A stretch of 35,629 nt of DNA from a virus, in the IMG/VR virus record IMGVR_UViG_3300030060_001675, positions 1,176 through 36,804 of that record; one strand, 5' to 3'. The notes under the pieces were generated by a model. That model ran no database searches, was not told where the DNA came from, and saw only the letters and a program-made list of their open reading frames with translations. Shown one piece after another: positions 2,917-35,629 of this stretch. Each line of letters starts with the position of its first letter. The first letter of the stretch is position 1. Position numbers and translations under genes: made by a program.

Positions 2917-3068
2917 TACTCCTCCTCACAATCGCAATCTATTGCTTTGTAATATGGTGGTGTAGTTTTACTTTCTGTACAACATATAATATCTACAAAT
3001 TCTTCTTGTTCTTCTTCAGATAATTTCTGTGGTGTAGTTTTACTTTCTGTACAACATATAATATCCAT
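2916..3068 (-). CDS. 50-aa microprotein built from an internal duplication
   Basis: A 50-codon gene read by hand. Residues 2-13 (DIICCTESKTTP) recur exactly at residues 26-37, 24 codons apart, encoded by 37-bp direct repeats. Each copy has a Cys-Cys pair, and a CDC occurs near the end. The last codons are three GAG, doubling as the ribosome-binding site of the following gene. Start and stop both overlap neighbours by one base (TAATG). No function known; a small metal-binding or redox role is possible. Confidence 0.55.
   Translation of the reverse strand: MDIICCTESKTTPQKLSEEEQEEFVDIICCTESKTTPPYYKAIDCDCEEE
2957..3065. repeat. 37-bp direct repeat pair, 72-bp period
   Basis: Bases 2957-2993 and 3029-3065 are identical. 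The period of 72 is a multiple of three, so the duplication keeps the reading frame of the 50-aa microprotein. The sequence between copies is not repeated, so either only part was duplicated or the spacer has diverged. Confidence 0.9.
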
Positions 3069-19084: not shown

Positions 19085-20077
19085 ATGTCAATTGTTACAA
19101 CTACAACTACTACTCAACCCTTTGGTGGTGTAGGTAGTGGTGATGCAGCAGGTGGTGGTGATGGTCCTGATGAAGATTTTTACACAAGAATTGAATCTAT
19201 ATTAGATGGAACAACTGCAGGTAATAAAACACCATTAGGTAATGGTTATTTAAAAGAGTATGAAATTCAATTAGAAAATCAAGACCCAACAAAAGAACCT
19301 ACTGTAAAATTAGTGCCTGTTGAAGAGTTCTTAACATCTGACGAATACCAATCACAAAGAAGAGAATTATTAGGTCAAGGTGCTGCATACAACTATGTAT
19401 ATTTTCCACCAGACATTGGAGCACAAGCAAGGTTGCAAACACCATACATTAGAGTACAAACTAAAAATTTATTAGCTGCTGCAGGACTTATAGATTTAAA
19501 TAAAACTGTAGGTGCAGAAATAGATAATGAGTATCTTAAAGGAATAAAAGCTGCTATGGAGTTTTCTATGAACAATGGTGGACAAATGTCATGGGTAGCA
19601 GGACTAAAAATATTAGCAAGTGCAACACAAGGTTCACAGCTATCAGCACTAGGTGGTGGATATAGTTTTGGTGATGAAGCGTTAAATGAGTTTGTTGACG
19701 AAATGGTAAGTAAAGCAGAAACAAGAAAAGGTGCACCATTGTCAAACTATGAGAAACAATACATTACAGCTAAATTAACTGATGGACCTGCAGAAGAATT
19801 TAAACAATCACTTTCAGGATTAGCAGCAGGAACAGCACCTACTTTAGGTTACGACACGCAAACTGGTCAAGCAATCCAAACACCAGGTACAGGAGCTGAT
19901 GAACCAGATATAGATATTCTTACAGAAGGTGGACAAGATGTATTAGATGAAATATTTGAACCTAGAGAAGAACTACAAAGACAAGCAGATGTAGAAGACC
20001 AAACATTCTATAGGATGCAAAGAAATTTAGCAGGATTAAAAGCTGCTGAATCACGACCAGTACAAAGGGTAACATAA
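19085..20077 (+). CDS. Hypothetical virion protein (330 aa)
   Basis: 330 aa. It opens with a Thr/Gly-rich, likely disordered tail (SIVTTTTTTQPFGG; GDAAGGGDGPDED). A mixed alpha/beta centre follows (KLVPVEEFLTSDEYQSQRRE; AAMEFSMNNGGQMSWVAGLK), then a helical C-terminal third with an acidic patch. No family recognised. A GAGGA site precedes the ATG and the end overlaps the lysozyme ATG by one base. By position it is a structural or internal virion protein. Confidence 0.6.
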   Translation: MSIVTTTTTTQPFGGVGSGDAAGGGDGPDEDFYTRIESILDGTTAGNKTPLGNGYLKEYEIQLENQDPTKEPTVKLVPVEEFLTSDEYQSQRRELLGQGAAYNYVYFPPDIGAQARLQTPYIRVQTKNLLAAAGLIDLNKTVGAEIDNEYLKGIKAAMEFSMNNGGQMSWVAGLKILASATQGSQLSALGGGYSFGDEALNEFVDEMVSKAETRKGAPLSNYEKQYITAKLTDGPAEEFKQSLSGLAAGTAPTLGYDTQTGQAIQTPGTGADEPDIDILTEGGQDVLDEIFEPREELQRQADVEDQTFYRMQRNLAGLKAAESRPVQRVT

Positions 20078-20871
20078 TGGAAATGGAAATATCACCTCCT
20101 GCAATAGAAATTATAAAAGAATATGAGACTTTGCAACTAACAGCATATCGAGATGGAGAATCTGTATCTATTGGTTATGGACACAGTAATTTAAGTGGTG
20201 GTGAACAATTTGAATTAGGTGACACAATTACAGAAGAAAAAGCTAATGAATTGTTGTTAGCTGATTTAGAAGAAATTGAAAGAATTGTAAATCAAAGAAT
20301 GAAAAATTATGATGTAACATTTACCCAGGGTCAATATGATGGCATGGTAGTAGGAACATTTAATAGACCAGAACAATTAAAATCAAAAAGTTTATATGAG
20401 ACAGTATCTAGTGGAGACACAGATGCAATTACTAAATCTTGGAATAATACTATATCAGATAAAGATAAAGAAAATTATCCTGGTTTAGTTGATAGACAAA
20501 CAGCAGAACTAGGTTTAATAATACCTAAAGAAGAAGTAACAACAGATACTACAGCTACTATGGAAGGAGAACCAAATCCAGATTACGAATCACCACAAGG
20601 TAATGTGCCAGGTTTTGACCCAAGTCAACCAACCAAAGCACAGAGAGTTTCTACACCACCTATGACAGATTCACAAATGTATGAGTATACATCACAAGTA
20701 CCATTAGCTGCACAAAATACAGCTTATGGTAGAGTTAGACAAATGTTAGAAGCACAAGTAAACAAACAAAAAAAACAAGCAGGTCATTCAGTTGTTCCTG
20801 GCGTAGGACCACAAGTTAAAATTGCACTGGACGAAGCAATAAAAGTTGCATTTAAGTTGTTAGGAAGATAA
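20077..20871 (+). CDS. Virion-associated lysozyme (GH24/T4-like) with C-terminal extension
   Basis: 264 aa. Residues ~8-150 align by eye with T4-type lysozymes (muramidases), which cut the MurNAc-GlcNAc bond of peptidoglycan: 'IIKEYETLQLTAYRDGESVS' then 'IGYGHSN'. By comparison with T4 (Glu11, Asp20, Thr26), the catalytic residues would be Glu17, Asp26 and Ser31, so the Thr is replaced by Ser and the loop is one residue shorter. Residues ~160-264 form a Pro/Gln/Thr-rich linker and a basic C-terminal helix, longer than a typical endolysin tail. The gene sits among virion genes, so a wall-piercing role during entry is more likely than, or additional to, release lysis. Confidence 0.8.
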   Translation: MEMEISPPAIEIIKEYETLQLTAYRDGESVSIGYGHSNLSGGEQFELGDTITEEKANELLLADLEEIERIVNQRMKNYDVTFTQGQYDGMVVGTFNRPEQLKSKSLYETVSSGDTDAITKSWNNTISDKDKENYPGLVDRQTAELGLIIPKEEVTTDTTATMEGEPNPDYESPQGNVPGFDPSQPTKAQRVSTPPMTDSQMYEYTSQVPLAAQNTAYGRVRQMLEAQVNKQKKQAGHSVVPGVGPQVKIALDEAIKVAFKLLGR

Positions 20872-26877: not shown

Positions 26878-27996
26878 ATGGCAGACATATCGTTAACTAA
26901 TAACACGATTTATGCACAAAACATTAATAACTTTACTGGTGAATTGTTTAAAGTTGGTGGTCAAAGAACTCCATTGCTCTCAGCAGTTGGTGGTTTGAAT
27001 GGTGGCAAAGTATTAAACTCTACATATTGGCAAGTCCAAGTAGAAGATAATGCAACAATTTCTTCTGAACCTACAAAAGGTCAAGAAGGTGCATCACCTA
27101 CAGAATATCTCGGAAGAGACAGAGCTGCGTACACTTATGTAACTCAGATTTTCCATAAGGGTGTTCAAATGACATACACAGCTTTAGCATCAACAGGTAA
27201 CCAAAATCCATTTACTTTATCTGCAGCTATTACAAATCAATCTGATGGTGATGGAACAACAACAGCAGGTACAGCACAAGGACTATTTGGTGGTAACCCA
27301 GTAAATGATGAATTTGCATTACAGCTTGAAAAAGCAATGGAAAAAGTAGCAAGAGAAGTTGAGTGGTTTGCATTCAATGGTTCTTTCTCTGATGGTGCTA
27401 ATACCACTCCAGGGTCAGGAACTAGAGAAATGTATGGTCTTGATGTATGGATTACATTAAACAAAAACGCTAACAACTCTGCAGCAGTAAACCCACTAGG
27501 TGGTAACTGCTTCTACAACGACACAGATGGTGATGGAACAGGTACTGCACAAGTAATTAGTTTCAAAACTATTTCAGGTGCGTTAAAGAGGATGTATGAC
27601 AATCATGCACCAATGAAACAACCTGTACTTTGTGTTAGCCCACAGCAATTACTAGACCTTAACAACGAGCTTGTTAAAGGAACAGTTGATATAGCAGGAG
27701 CAATCATTCCTAGAGATAGAAATGTTGCAGGTATTGATATTGATACAATCGTTACACCATTCGGTTCAATCGGACTAATGGTTCTCGACCCAAATATCAT
27801 TCCAACAGGAACTGCTTTCATCTTAGACCTAGCTTACATACAACCAGTATTCACCAATATCCCAGGATTTGGTACTGTGTTTGTTCGTGACTTAGACCAA
27901 GATGCAAACGCTAGAATTGGTAAAGCAATTTATATGGAGATGGGATTCGAATTTGGTCCTCCTTCATATCACTGCAAGATTCAAGCAGTAGCTTAA
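26878..27996 (+). CDS. Major capsid protein (HK97 fold, SU10/DUF5309-like)
   Basis: 372 aa with AGGAGA 8 bases before the ATG. The 'KVLNSTYWQVQVEDN' start, the 'RDRAAYTYVTQIFHKGVQMT' strand, a long helix 'FALQLEKAMEKVAREVEWFA', 'SFKTISGALKRMYDNHAPMK', 'VLCVSPQQLLDLNNEL', and the 'TPFGSIGLMVLDPNIIP ... FVRDL' end resemble capsid proteins of the SU10/DUF5309 type, as far as I can judge without alignment. It forms the icosahedral shell. Codons here use more C-ending forms (ttc, aac, gac, atc) than neighbouring genes, as expected for the most abundant protein. A hairpin follows the gene. Confidence 0.85.
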   Translation: MADISLTNNTIYAQNINNFTGELFKVGGQRTPLLSAVGGLNGGKVLNSTYWQVQVEDNATISSEPTKGQEGASPTEYLGRDRAAYTYVTQIFHKGVQMTYTALASTGNQNPFTLSAAITNQSDGDGTTTAGTAQGLFGGNPVNDEFALQLEKAMEKVAREVEWFAFNGSFSDGANTTPGSGTREMYGLDVWITLNKNANNSAAVNPLGGNCFYNDTDGDGTGTAQVISFKTISGALKRMYDNHAPMKQPVLCVSPQQLLDLNNELVKGTVDIAGAIIPRDRNVAGIDIDTIVTPFGSIGLMVLDPNIIPTGTAFILDLAYIQPVFTNIPGFGTVFVRDLDQDANARIGKAIYMEMGFEFGPPSYHCKIQAVA

Positions 27997-33445: not shown

Positions 33446-33607
33446 ATGGATTTACTCATATACTTACTTTTAATTGCTTTAGTTATAGAAAACTATGGTA
33501 ATCTATATAAATTTCTGACAGGTAAATCACAGAAAGCACCTTACTATCATAAGAAAAAAGACCCTTGGAATTGGCAAGATGATTGGAATACAGATGACAT
33601 CTTATAA
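33446..33607 (+). CDS. One-TM microprotein (53 aa)
   Basis: 53 codons read by hand. Residues 2-14 (DLLIYLLLIALVI) are a membrane helix or signal anchor. The rest is polar, with a KKKDPWNWQDDWN stretch rich in Trp and Asp. It is placed 7 bases after an extended -10, so it is probably translated from a leaderless mRNA. It overlaps the XhlA-like gene. It may be part of a lysis or membrane cassette; unproven. Confidence 0.6.
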   Translation: MDLLIYLLLIALVIENYGNLYKFLTGKSQKAPYYHKKKDPWNWQDDWNTDDIL

Positions 33608-33788
33608 TAATGGTAATGGCTTTACACAAAAAGAAATGTTAAATCTTATATTAGAAGGGCAACAAGATATAAACAAACGCATAGATGAATTACATGAAAA
33701 GGTTAATCAAAAAATTTCAAGACAAGAGTTATCAGGTTGGTTAGTTGCAATCTCGGCACTGGTGGTGTTAATCAATAATTTAATGTAA
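33594..33788 (+). CDS. XhlA/holin-like protein (64 aa)
   Basis: 64 aa from the ATG at 33594, which has GGA 7 bases ahead; an ATG at 33579 would add five residues. An N-terminal coiled coil (LEGQQDINKRIDELHEKVNQ) is followed by a C-terminal membrane helix (GWLVAISALVVLINNLM). The same 'coiled coil plus one TM helix' plan is known from XhlA-type haemolysin/holin accessory proteins. It may help breach the membrane at lysis. No separate endolysin gene is in view, apart from the virion lysozyme. Confidence 0.55.
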   Translation: MTSYNNGNGFTQKEMLNLILEGQQDINKRIDELHEKVNQKISRQELSGWLVAISALVVLINNLM

Positions 33789-33895
33789 TGGAAGAAGATT
33801 TTGTACTTCCAGACAATATGTTTGCAGACAACCCTGAGTTTGTAGATACTTCACACGAATTTGATGATGATTGTGGGGATGCGTGTAAGATATGA
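33788..33895 (+). CDS. Acidic microprotein with C-x4-C (35 aa)
   Basis: 35 codons read by hand: MEEDFVLPDNMFADNPEFVD, then TSHEFDDDCGDACKI. Strongly acidic, with one His and two Cys near the end that might bind metal or form a disulphide. It is coupled by TAATG to the gene before it and by ATGA to the ferredoxin gene after it. Coupling to a ferredoxin makes a role with it imaginable, nothing more. Confidence 0.5.
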   Translation: MEEDFVLPDNMFADNPEFVDTSHEFDDDCGDACKI

Positions 33896-34137
33896 AAGTT
33901 TGGATTGACCAGGACCTTTGTACAGGTGATGGTTTGTGTGAAGAAATAGCACCTGATGTTTTTATTGGTTTAGATGATGGTTTGTTTTATGTAAAAGAAG
34001 GTGACAAAATATTTTCAGAAGAACATGGTAATGTTGGTGGTGCAGCAGGTTTAGCTTTAATACCTAGTGGACAAGAAGAAGCAGTAATAGAATCTGCAGA
34101 GGAATGCCCTGGTGAGTGCATAATGATAGAGCCATGA
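33892..34137 (+). CDS. Ferredoxin, single [3Fe-4S]/[4Fe-4S] cluster, actinobacterial type
   Basis: 81 aa. Ferredoxins carry single electrons between enzymes in the cytoplasm. The cluster ligands read C10-T-G-D13-G-L-C16 and C72-P (with C76 nearby in CPGEC). The central Cys of the usual CxxCxxC is Asp13, so the cluster is either [3Fe-4S] or a [4Fe-4S] with an Asp ligand as in Pyrococcus furiosus ferredoxin. The flanking 'DLCTGDGLCEEIAPDVF', 'LDDGLFYVKEGD' and 'AEECPGECIMIE' match small actinobacterial ferredoxins that often serve P450 or other oxygenase systems. No partner reductase or oxygenase is in the window. It is ATGA-coupled on both sides. Likely an auxiliary metabolic gene from the host. 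Confidence 0.9.
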   Translation: MKVWIDQDLCTGDGLCEEIAPDVFIGLDDGLFYVKEGDKIFSEEHGNVGGAAGLALIPSGQEEAVIESAEECPGECIMIEP

Positions 34138-35629
34138 AAAAACTTGCAATATTAACTGCAGTTCTTTTATTAGCTGTACCTTTACATGCTATAGCAGAAG
34201 AAACTACAGTAACAGAAACATTTGATAATCAAGAAATAAACACAGATATTACATTTGTATATGGAGCTAGTGACACAGTTGTAAGTGCTGCTACTACACA
34301 GAGTCCTGAATGTGCCAATTTAAATGAGCAAGGTCTTATAGGCATAGAAGATATGGATTGTTTTGGTAGTGAATACTTTGGTAATGATAGATACCAACTT
34401 GGTATTAGAGGTAGTTCAGACAGTCTTACTATTGCATTTCCAAACGAACCTTACGAAGTAGGTTTTAATTATGGTGCTATAGACCAAGAAGGTGGTGTAT
34501 CAGGTGTTGTATATTATGACAATGGTGCATCAGAAAATTTTACATTAGATGTAAATACAGATATGACAGTAGCAGGTAGTAAAGTATTTGCAGTTGCAGA
34601 AACAGTAGATACATTTATTACAGAGATAGTGATAGAGGGAATAACTGATTGGTGGCTTATAGATAATGTATACTATAAATATGATTTACCTAATAACACG
34701 CCTCCTAGTACGACAACAACTACTAGCACCACAACTACGACTACTACCACGACTACGACACTTCCTCCATCAGAGACTGTGGTTGAAGATAACATCACTA
34801 CCTACCTTGCATGGGATGAATATGGTTGCGAACATCCGAACAACCCTTTATCGTATAAGCAATATTTGGAGGCGATAGAAAGTGGAGATTGGTTCGGTTA
34901 TCAAAATGGTGATTGCTCTGACATACCTGATGTCATTACTATTATTGTCGAAGAAGAAGAGGAGATAGAAGAAGATGAGTTGGACAAAGAGATACTTCGA
35001 GATGACGACCTCGGAGAAGAAACAATTCAAGAAGAACTTGAAGACGAGGGTAGTACAGAACTCACCGAAGAAGAAATAGCTGTTATTGAAGCAGAGATAC
35101 AAGCTGAAGAAGAGCGTTTAATTCAGGAACAGATAGATGCTGAAGAAGAATTACTTATATTAGAAGAGCTTGAGGACAGTGTTATTATTCTTGAAGATTT
35201 ATCTGAAGAGGAACTAGAAGAATTTGTAGATATTATACAGGAACTTGAAGATACTATTGAGATTATAGAAATAGTAGAAGAAATAATAGAGTTAGATATA
35301 CCAGAAGATATTATAATTATTATTGAGGAAGAGGTTTTAGAAGATGATGTTGTTGTTGTGGTGGAAGATGAAGAAGTTATCGAGGAAGTTTTGGATGAGC
35401 CAATACAGGAAGATGTTGAGGAGAAACCTAAAGAAGAACTTTCTGAAGAAGAGGTCACTGAAGAACTTGTTGAAGTTGAAGAGGTCATTGAAGAACTCAT
35501 TACAGTAGAGTTAGTAGAAATATCTGAGGAAGAGTTAGAAGAACTAAGTGAGGAGGAGTTAGTTGAATATGAAGAAGCTAAAGAAGAAGCAATACAAGAG
35601 TTTGTACAAGAGCTTACCAACGAAGAAGT
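34134..35629 (+). CDS. Secreted protein: signal peptide, beta domain, Thr-rich linker, Glu-rich tail (3' truncated)
   Basis: At least 498 aa; the frame is open to the end of the window. It begins with a clear signal peptide, MKKLAILTAVLLLAVPLHAI, cleaved probably after AIA. Residues ~23-190 form a beta-rich domain ('LTIAFPNEPYEVGFNYGAID', 'VVYYDNGASENFTLDV', 'EGITDWWLIDNVYYKY') resembling secreted lectin- or PEP-CTERM-type domains. Next come 16 Thr with one Ser, ending TLPP (about 34709-34759), a linker type I associate with marine Actinobacteria. A short Cys-containing segment follows (YLAWDEYGCEHPNNPLSYKQ ... GDCSD). From ~268 on it is extremely Glu/Ile/Leu-rich with recurring 'SEEELEEL' and 'VIEEL' units. 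It starts in an ATGA overlap with the ferredoxin gene. Function unknown. Confidence 0.75.
   Translation, partial: MKKLAILTAVLLLAVPLHAIAEETTVTETFDNQEINTDITFVYGASDTVVSAATTQSPECANLNEQGLIGIEDMDCFGSEYFGNDRYQLGIRGSSDSLTIAFPNEPYEVGFNYGAIDQEGGVSGVVYYDNGASENFTLDVNTDMTVAGSKVFAVAETVDTFITEIVIEGITDWWLIDNVYYKYDLPNNTPPSTTTTTSTTTTTTTTTTTLPPSETVVEDNITTYLAWDEYGCEHPNNPLSYKQYLEAIESGDWFGYQNGDCSDIPDVITIIVEEEEEIEEDELDKEILRDDDLGEETIQEELEDEGSTELTEEEIAVIEAEIQAEEERLIQEQIDAEEELLILEELEDSVIILEDLSEEELEEFVDIIQELEDTIEIIEIVEEIIELDIPEDIIIIIEEEVLEDDVVVVVEDEEVIEEVLDEPIQEDVEEKPKEELSEEEVTEELVEVEEVIEELITVELVEISEEELEELSEEELVEYEEAKEEAIQEFVQELTNEE
34709..34759 (+). repeat. Thr-codon tract
   Basis: Seventeen codons, 16 Thr and one Ser, using ACA, ACT, ACC and ACG mixed. 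The use of ACG and ACC is noticeably more GC-rich than neighbouring coding sequence, and the changing codons argue for selection on the protein rather than simple repeat slippage. Confidence 0.8.

Follow-up and report, generated by a model that had tools for sequence, protein, structure and literature searches.

The window analyzed here, a stretch of 35,629 nucleotides comprising bases 1176-36804 of the 36,804-base virus record IMGVR_UViG_3300030060_001675, ends within a gene encoding an acidic protein of modular architecture (Table 1). The translation from position 34134 on the plus strand stays open to the window end at 35629 and comprises 498 residues; because the reading frame is cut by the contig end, with no stop codon involved, the gene is incomplete. 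A first-pass annotation of this sequence had described a secreted phage protein with a signal peptide, a lectin-like head, a poly-Thr linker, a small Cys segment, and a giant acidic tail, encoded in an ATGA overlap with a ferredoxin gene. All of these features were recovered, the signal peptide by a heuristic whose pattern is kept in relatives, the head at the level of the predicted fold, and the tail as a region that goes on in complete relatives. In the linker, 16 Thr surround a single Ser and one further Thr flanks them; the linker is not a simple DNA repeat, since its Thr codons are mixed. The acidic part (34947-35627) holds 107 Asp or Glu and 6 Lys or Arg in 227 residues, and among the 19 other listed ORFs of the window the most acidic stretch of 233 residues reaches 21% Asp and Glu. 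Cysteines are found solely at residues 60, 76, 232, and 261, none of them near the putative cleavage site. On the minus strand, the 39 bases at 2985-3023 share 95% identity with positions 35199-35237 of the acidic gene; they belong to a small ORF of that strand, which contains an internal direct repeat. At about 1164-1175 of the record, just ahead of the first base of the window, a short run of N was also seen.

Table 1. Features of the window that bear on the acidic gene and its phage
Feature	Position	Strand	Basis
Phage lysozyme, candidate endolysin of the window phage	20077..20871	+	PF00959, 1.7e-18
SU10-type major capsid protein, phage-group marker	26878..27996	+	PF17236, 2.6e-43
Small protein, coiled-coil-like by eye, with a single hydrophobic segment at the C-terminus	33579..33788	+	tblastn, hydropathy
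Ferredoxin (Fer4_15), in ATGA overlap with the acidic gene	33892..34137	+	Fer4_15, 2.9e-14
Signal-peptide-like N-terminus, residues 1-22	34134..34199	+	Own heuristic (n-region, h-region, cleavage-like motif)
Head, predicted beta-sandwich of class A, carbohydrate-binding-module-like, about residues 23-187	34200..34694	+	AlphaFold2 model, Foldseek, VIA-align
Thr/Pro linker, 16 Thr around one Ser	34692..34772	+	Sequence; mixed Thr codons
Small two-Cys module, type 1 (TTYLAWDxxGCxHP ... GDC), C232 and C261	34794..34922	+	Sequence pattern
Acidic stalk, open at the contig end	34947..35629	+	Composition; relatives L008 and L023

The missing part of the protein was approached through its relatives. 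A first IMG/VR scan with the window protein gave 74 loci. A second one, run with aligned C-terminal regions, a part that is absent from the window, found at least 401 IMG/VR stretches encoding a relative of this region (80 loci kept), so that the homologues are not all bacterial and do occur on viral contigs. The C-terminal profile matched 171 ORFs among the loci gathered, including 115 complete ones, 90 of which were non-redundant. Counted from stop to stop, which makes the true proteins somewhat shorter, 88 of these 90 have 545-743 codons, one has 258, and one has 917; the shortest (L132) was dropped, leaving 89 relatives for the following counts. The longest (L160) has a longer head region with extra repeats, as judged by eye. 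These lengths indicate that the acidic tail continues past the window end, and the relative L008, 86% identical to the window protein in the best segment, runs on for about 165 residues beyond the corresponding point. As judged from its relatives, the window protein is expected to extend by about 165 residues, which would comprise the conserved C-terminal region (ending ...DQKEKAQEVVVPVILTRIASMAAFIFRRS or similar in relatives) and a hydrophobic tail.

At the N-terminus, the h-region is strongly hydrophobic in 88 of the 89 relatives, the n-region is basic in 80, and a cleavage-like motif is found in 88, with all three features present in 78. At the opposite end, which the first-pass annotation had singled out as worth checking for a membrane segment, a hydrophobic, TM-like segment followed by basic residues was found: the best 18-mer has a median hydropathy of 2.18 (minimum 1.41, above 1.6 in 85 of 89), and exactly two of the last six residues are basic in 88 relatives and four in the remaining one. 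A further internal segment with hydropathy above 1.6 occurs in a single relative, and the complete relative L023 has a strong hydrophobic segment at each end. The C-terminal tail is short and carries a central Arg, and the AlphaFold2 model of the C-terminal region was poor (pLDDT 51.7), too poor for a fold search, which was set aside. By hydropathy alone, a putative cleaved signal peptide together with a C-terminal anchor is the pattern of these relatives, and a membrane-tethered surface protein is predicted, most probably one exposed on the infected cell. No fitting model was found in Pfam, PHROG, or NCBIfam for the proteins scanned.

The relatives share the modular build of the window protein in their middle part, with Thr runs of varied length (in L072, L077, and L124 additional runs stand ahead of the head) and a Cys module that belongs to type 1 in 51 of the 89, to type 2 in 34, and to neither in 4. 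The net charge, calculated for the stop-to-stop ORFs, ranges from -111 to -209 with a median of -161. Such a very high negative charge, combined with an adhesin-like succession of head, Thr/Pro linker, stalk, and tail, would fit a protein displayed for aggregation, for particle adhesion, or to shield infected cells against grazers. This explanation is improbable, as no benefit so late in infection is evident and the coupling to a small membrane protein gene and the lysis neighbours described below would be left unexplained. Seawater contains about 10 mM Ca and 50 mM Mg, in which a role as a sink for divalent cations is implausible; cation sequestration was set aside for this reason.

An alignment of 30 heads was used for structure prediction, and AlphaFold2 returned a head model with a pLDDT of 81.0 and a pTM of 0.81. 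With this model, Foldseek gave 53 PDB matches at E <= 1e-3, the best of them to TmCBM61 (3e-5) and lower ones to CBM6, CBM16, and CBM22. The VIA-align comparison with TmCBM61 gave a Z of 10.4 and an rmsd of 3.2 over 133 aligned residues, and the next matches (Z 8.6-9.9) included many carbohydrate-binding modules and also MAM, reelin, and other beta-sandwich domains. The predicted model supports a CBM-like beta-sandwich, from which sugar binding by the head may be inferred. The model shares its fold with modules of families CBM61, CBM22, CBM29, CBM35, and CBM6, but the head is only 6-18% identical to them in the matches listed and the window protein hits no Pfam family at E <= 0.05, no PHROGs at 0.1, and no NCBIfam at 0.1. 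A PDB sequence search with the head and the C-terminal region also gave no convincing match, and tblastn of the head, the C-terminal regions, and the small downstream protein against 50,697 phage records gave none.

Foldseek matches of the head in the viral library include a tail fibre and several minor tail proteins, showing that CBM-like folds occur on tail proteins, and the acidic gene comes after the tail and fibre genes. Both points would suit a virion appendage, that is, a minor structural or receptor-binding part whose hydrophobic N-terminus is not a cleaved signal. We regard this as quite improbable, since signal-like features are kept despite sequence divergence, and since the hydrophobic tail with its basic end and the coupled membrane protein gene do not fit a particle component.

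By sequence patterns defined for this analysis, the heads of the 89 relatives were sorted into five classes, with 35 in A, 28 in B, 17 in D, 7 in C, and 2 in E. An FN3 reading of the class B head, originally a visual impression, was rejected, as four class B stretches had no Pfam family at 0.01. Among proteins with at least 97% identity over the last 110 residues, 26 pairs differ in head class and 48 pairs share it; these pairs are non-independent, as some proteins recur. In Mantel tests with 30 usable loci, head similarity followed neither that of the C-terminal region (r -0.09) nor that of the longest downstream ORF (r -0.12), whereas the C-terminal region and the longest downstream ORF were correlated (r 0.56, p 0.001). 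The uncoupling of head and C-terminal region is incomplete, because their identities are modestly correlated within class A (r 0.30, 250 random pairs). The median dN/dS was 0.315 for the head (211 usable of 250 class A pairs) and 0.116 for the C-terminal region (207 pairs); positive selection on the head was rejected, as none of the 211 usable pairs exceeded 1, and none did so for the C-terminal region either. By these sequence comparisons, the head is a mobile module under weaker constraint, joined to an anchor that stays stable. Five of 105 head-bearing ORFs lack the C-terminal region, but use of the head elsewhere in phages was rejected: four of the five (two contigs, each present twice) are cut by contig ends, and the fifth (L132) is split by a stop.

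The head is weakly associated with the upstream fibre region across the same 30 loci (Mantel r 0.10, p 0.07; partial r 0.14, p 0.026), and matching of head to fibre type was set aside as weakly backed. These data bear on superinfection exclusion or receptor masking, in which the head would cover a host glycan used by the phage's own fibres, on the infected cell or on lysis debris, so that progeny or competitors could not bind, and the small membrane protein encoded downstream would block injection. T5 Llp and T4 Imm are precedents for such functions. A surface-exposed, glycan-binding-like head, class swapping on nearly identical tails, the partial head-fibre association, and the small size of the membrane partner would all be accommodated, and head diversity is explained equally well by this role and by a role in lysis. 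Nevertheless, exclusion genes are usually early, whereas this gene lies after structural genes and near holin-like and DUF5675 genes, and the simple head-fibre test was not significant; we consider exclusion or masking unlikely, though the main rival of the lysis reading.

In 89 of the 90 relative loci, a gene for a small protein with two hydrophobic segments (2-TM, by hydropathy) and basic ends, like some holins, was found downstream of the acidic gene, within 20 nt in 85 and at most 269 nt away; one locus (L043) gave no hit. In the reciprocal search from the 2-TM gene, the best 80 of at least 351 relatives were kept, and in 72 of the 73 kept loci with at least 150 nt upstream the C-terminal region lay directly upstream, the exception (L339) having another ORF there. 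The two genes overlap by 4 or 1 nt in 70 of the 76 2-TM loci where the C-terminal region was found. A DUF5675 gene, identified by Pfam match, lies downstream in 82 of the 90 loci and upstream in 5, and a holin-like gene lies downstream in 82, within 2 kb in 63 and beyond 2 kb in 19. The holin-like gene of L023 matches the phrog_443 holin (3.1e-06), with a Pfam holin solely below the cut-off (0.049). A structure search found no solved relative of DUF5675; the DUF5675 protein of L023:8238-8849 has a motif ending EHTSGC, which we take to recall L,D-transpeptidases.

The window contig opens (G000:C1:1-291, locus L003) within a DUF5675-like gene, of which it carries the 3' part, and the encoded product matches the DUF5675 proteins of relatives at their end. 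Because the contig starts in this gene and ends in the acidic gene, the same gene order seems to wrap around its ends, and the contig looks circularly permuted and nearly complete. The ferredoxin overlap, although real in the window, is not a general linkage: of 90 relative loci, tblastn found a match in 4, three of them with the match upstream, and ferredoxin is an accessory gene there. For the small coiled-coil-like protein, tblastn gave a hit in 76 of the 90 loci, on the upstream side in 69 and downstream in 5. The slot ahead of the gene carries cargo that varies by phage, including ferredoxin, a nuclease-like gene (by eye), and DUF5675, and a tryptophan halogenase (PF04820, 3.6e-33) is encoded upstream of the gene locus at L021:4501-5643.

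The presence of the pair was surveyed in every record of 39 kb or more (27 in all) among the best 80 of 217 loci with a related major capsid protein. The C-terminal region and the 2-TM gene were present in the same 24 of these 27. One of the remaining records (G054) is broken by contig ends at the site; another (G064) has neither gene of the pair and keeps DUF5675 and the holin, so that the pair is not needed in every relative. In the third (G066), which has no DUF5675, an Amidase_2 gene and a short gene judged holin-like by eye occupy the place of the pair. Endolysin candidates in the 27 records comprise Phage_lysozyme in four and Amidase_2 in G066. In addition, the 44-kb record G051 has two copies of the C-terminal region (C1:304-813 and 41710-42216), each with a 2-TM gene downstream, reflecting either tandem genes or an assembly effect.

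Major capsid protein searches against cultured phages gave 24 matching records, each below 60% identity, and 22 of the 24 are named for an actinobacterial host genus (13 Mycobacterium, 8 Propionibacterium, and 1 Bifidobacterium), while two have no bacterial genus in their names. Matches in species genomes comprised seven loci, and all six of those examined carry phage genes; they stem from metagenome-assembled genomes labelled gammaproteobacterial, actinobacterial, and flavobacterial, and from the Ca. Actinomarina single cell AG-919-G14. The phage sequence of this cell is named among the first bona fide Actinomarinales phages in PMC7771536. In its locus (L103), the gene is cut at its 5' end by the contig, leaving the head unseen, and is then followed by a 2-TM relative (37% identical), so that the two-gene pairing recurs in a distant phage. 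The divergent C-terminal region of L103, used alone as a query, found no relative among viral contigs.

The first-pass annotation had also considered an acquired host adhesin and proposed a search of Actinomarinales genomes. A search of 42 genomes from the order to which the Actinomarina single cell belongs yielded the C-terminal region in two, the single cell itself and G005 (taken, from its ORF lengths and spacing, to be the RS345 MAG), and the head in one, solely on contigs with phage genes; a host adhesin origin was rejected on this basis. In G005:C30, taken as L100/L101 (PBPX01000045.1, 58,316 bases), two equal-scoring copies lie 43,860 bases apart, which suggests that the phage genome is circular, measures about 43.9 kb, and was assembled with overlap. 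The host is likely actinobacterial and probably Actinomarina-like, and the phages appear to infect Actinomarina-type cells, marine actinobacteria of which, to our knowledge, no member has been cultured. We take the host to be a monoderm actinobacterium.

Taken together, a role in lysis or egress, with the protein linking the membrane to surface glycans, is the reading that we favour, if tentatively and with slightly less than an even chance, because of three features that relatives carry in the region beyond the window: a hydrophobic tail at the C-terminus, a 2-TM partner coupled to the gene, and lysis genes nearby. In this proposal, the protein would be a late product, as the gene order suggests, of a phage of marine Actinomarina-type actinobacteria and would be exported by its signal peptide. 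The C-terminal hydrophobic tail would hold it at the cytoplasmic membrane (N-out, C-in), and the acidic stalk and Thr linker would reach through the wall and present the exchangeable CBM-like head to surface glycans. With its coupled, holin-like 2-TM partner, it might engage or destabilise the glycan layer in the last step of infection, and disruption of this layer would let the holin and wall-degrading enzymes open the envelope so that progeny could leave. The replacement of the pair in G066 by Amidase_2, found in no other of the 27 long records, and a holin-like gene supports this role. A described pair of a 2-TMD holin and the single-TMD protein LysZ in cultured actinobacteriophages (PMC13148394, PMC13056207) points the same way.

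Several observations argue against a lysis role. DUF5675 and the holin are kept without the pair in G064, the tail is short with a central Arg and the C-terminal region is poorly modelled, candidate endolysins are few in related records (Phage_lysozyme in 4 of 27, Amidase_2 in 1), and in 19 of 82 loci a distance of more than 2 kb separates the holin-like gene from this one. Among the VIA-align matches of the head there are also beta-sandwiches other than CBMs at similar Z. In addition, exchangeable heads fit receptor-linked roles equally, and the partial head-fibre association slightly favours such a role. A stronger form of the lysis proposal would be a new class of lysis or egress factor for glycan-coated monoderm cells, that is, a giant tail-anchored tether forming a two-gene unit with the 2-TM partner, its head matched to the variable sugars of the host, with strain-specific lysis under an arms race; this we hold to be doubtful.

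The gene is near-universal in the sampled phage group, but Pfam, PHROGs, and NCBIfam contain no model for it. If the lysis role is correct, the recent idea that actinobacteriophages face surface glycopolymers would extend to a large, modular, and diversifying protein, and phage release might be strain-specific like entry. If exclusion is correct, the protein would represent a new late surface system. In either role, the head domains are candidate probes of the variable surface sugars of the host.

A literature search by title and start of abstract, covering published and mostly open-access papers, found no paper describing this protein. The first-pass annotation knew of no described system that matches it, a view that needs qualifying, as LysZ of corynephages and the u-spanins are functional analogues. 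A third likeness is to sortase-anchored adhesins of Gram-positive bacteria, which likewise begin with a signal peptide, go on with a binding head and a Thr/Pro linker, and finish in a hydrophobic segment with basic residues at the very end; here, by contrast, no LPXTG-like motif was seen by eye ahead of the C-terminal tail in an alignment of 25 relatives, and the relatives lie on phage contigs.

According to PMC6139136, the u-spanin T1 gp11 has an N-terminal export signal, an extracytoplasmic domain, a C-terminal TMD, and a gene in the lysis cassette; the export signal, the extracytoplasmic domain, and the gene position have predicted counterparts here. The same source describes a lipobox Cys in u-spanins and no periplasmic Cys in the 58 listed, whereas the window protein has no Cys at a lipobox position and carries all four of its cysteines past the signal peptide. 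As to a C-terminal TMD, the tail has a hydropathy above 1.6 in 85 of 89 relatives, but it carries a central Arg and its model is poor, and the window protein itself is incomplete.

LysZ of the Corynebacterium phages CL31 and Cog (work of McKitterick, Lyerly and Bernhardt, as described in PMC13056207 and PMC13148394) is reported to be a protein of 177 aa with one TMD and a proposed N-in, C-out topology, encoded with a 2-TMD holin and proposed to act on lipid-anchored surface glycans. Its setting in an actinobacteriophage lysis region, its membrane anchoring, and its 2-TMD neighbour recur here, the anchoring as a prediction and the neighbour as the putatively holin-like 2-TM protein, and a glycan role may be inferred for the window protein. 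The family differs from LysZ in its length (mostly 545-743 codons), in a signal-like start and C-terminal tail in place of a single TMD (a strong segment at both ends in L023, with the same pattern in most of the 89 relatives; predicted N-out, C-in), in its swappable CBM-like head and acidic stalk, and in a reversed gene order. By analogy, the protein may work in outline like LysZ and the u-spanins while standing outside the definition of either, as a membrane-tethered phage protein that would reach from the cell membrane to the surface glycans of its host.
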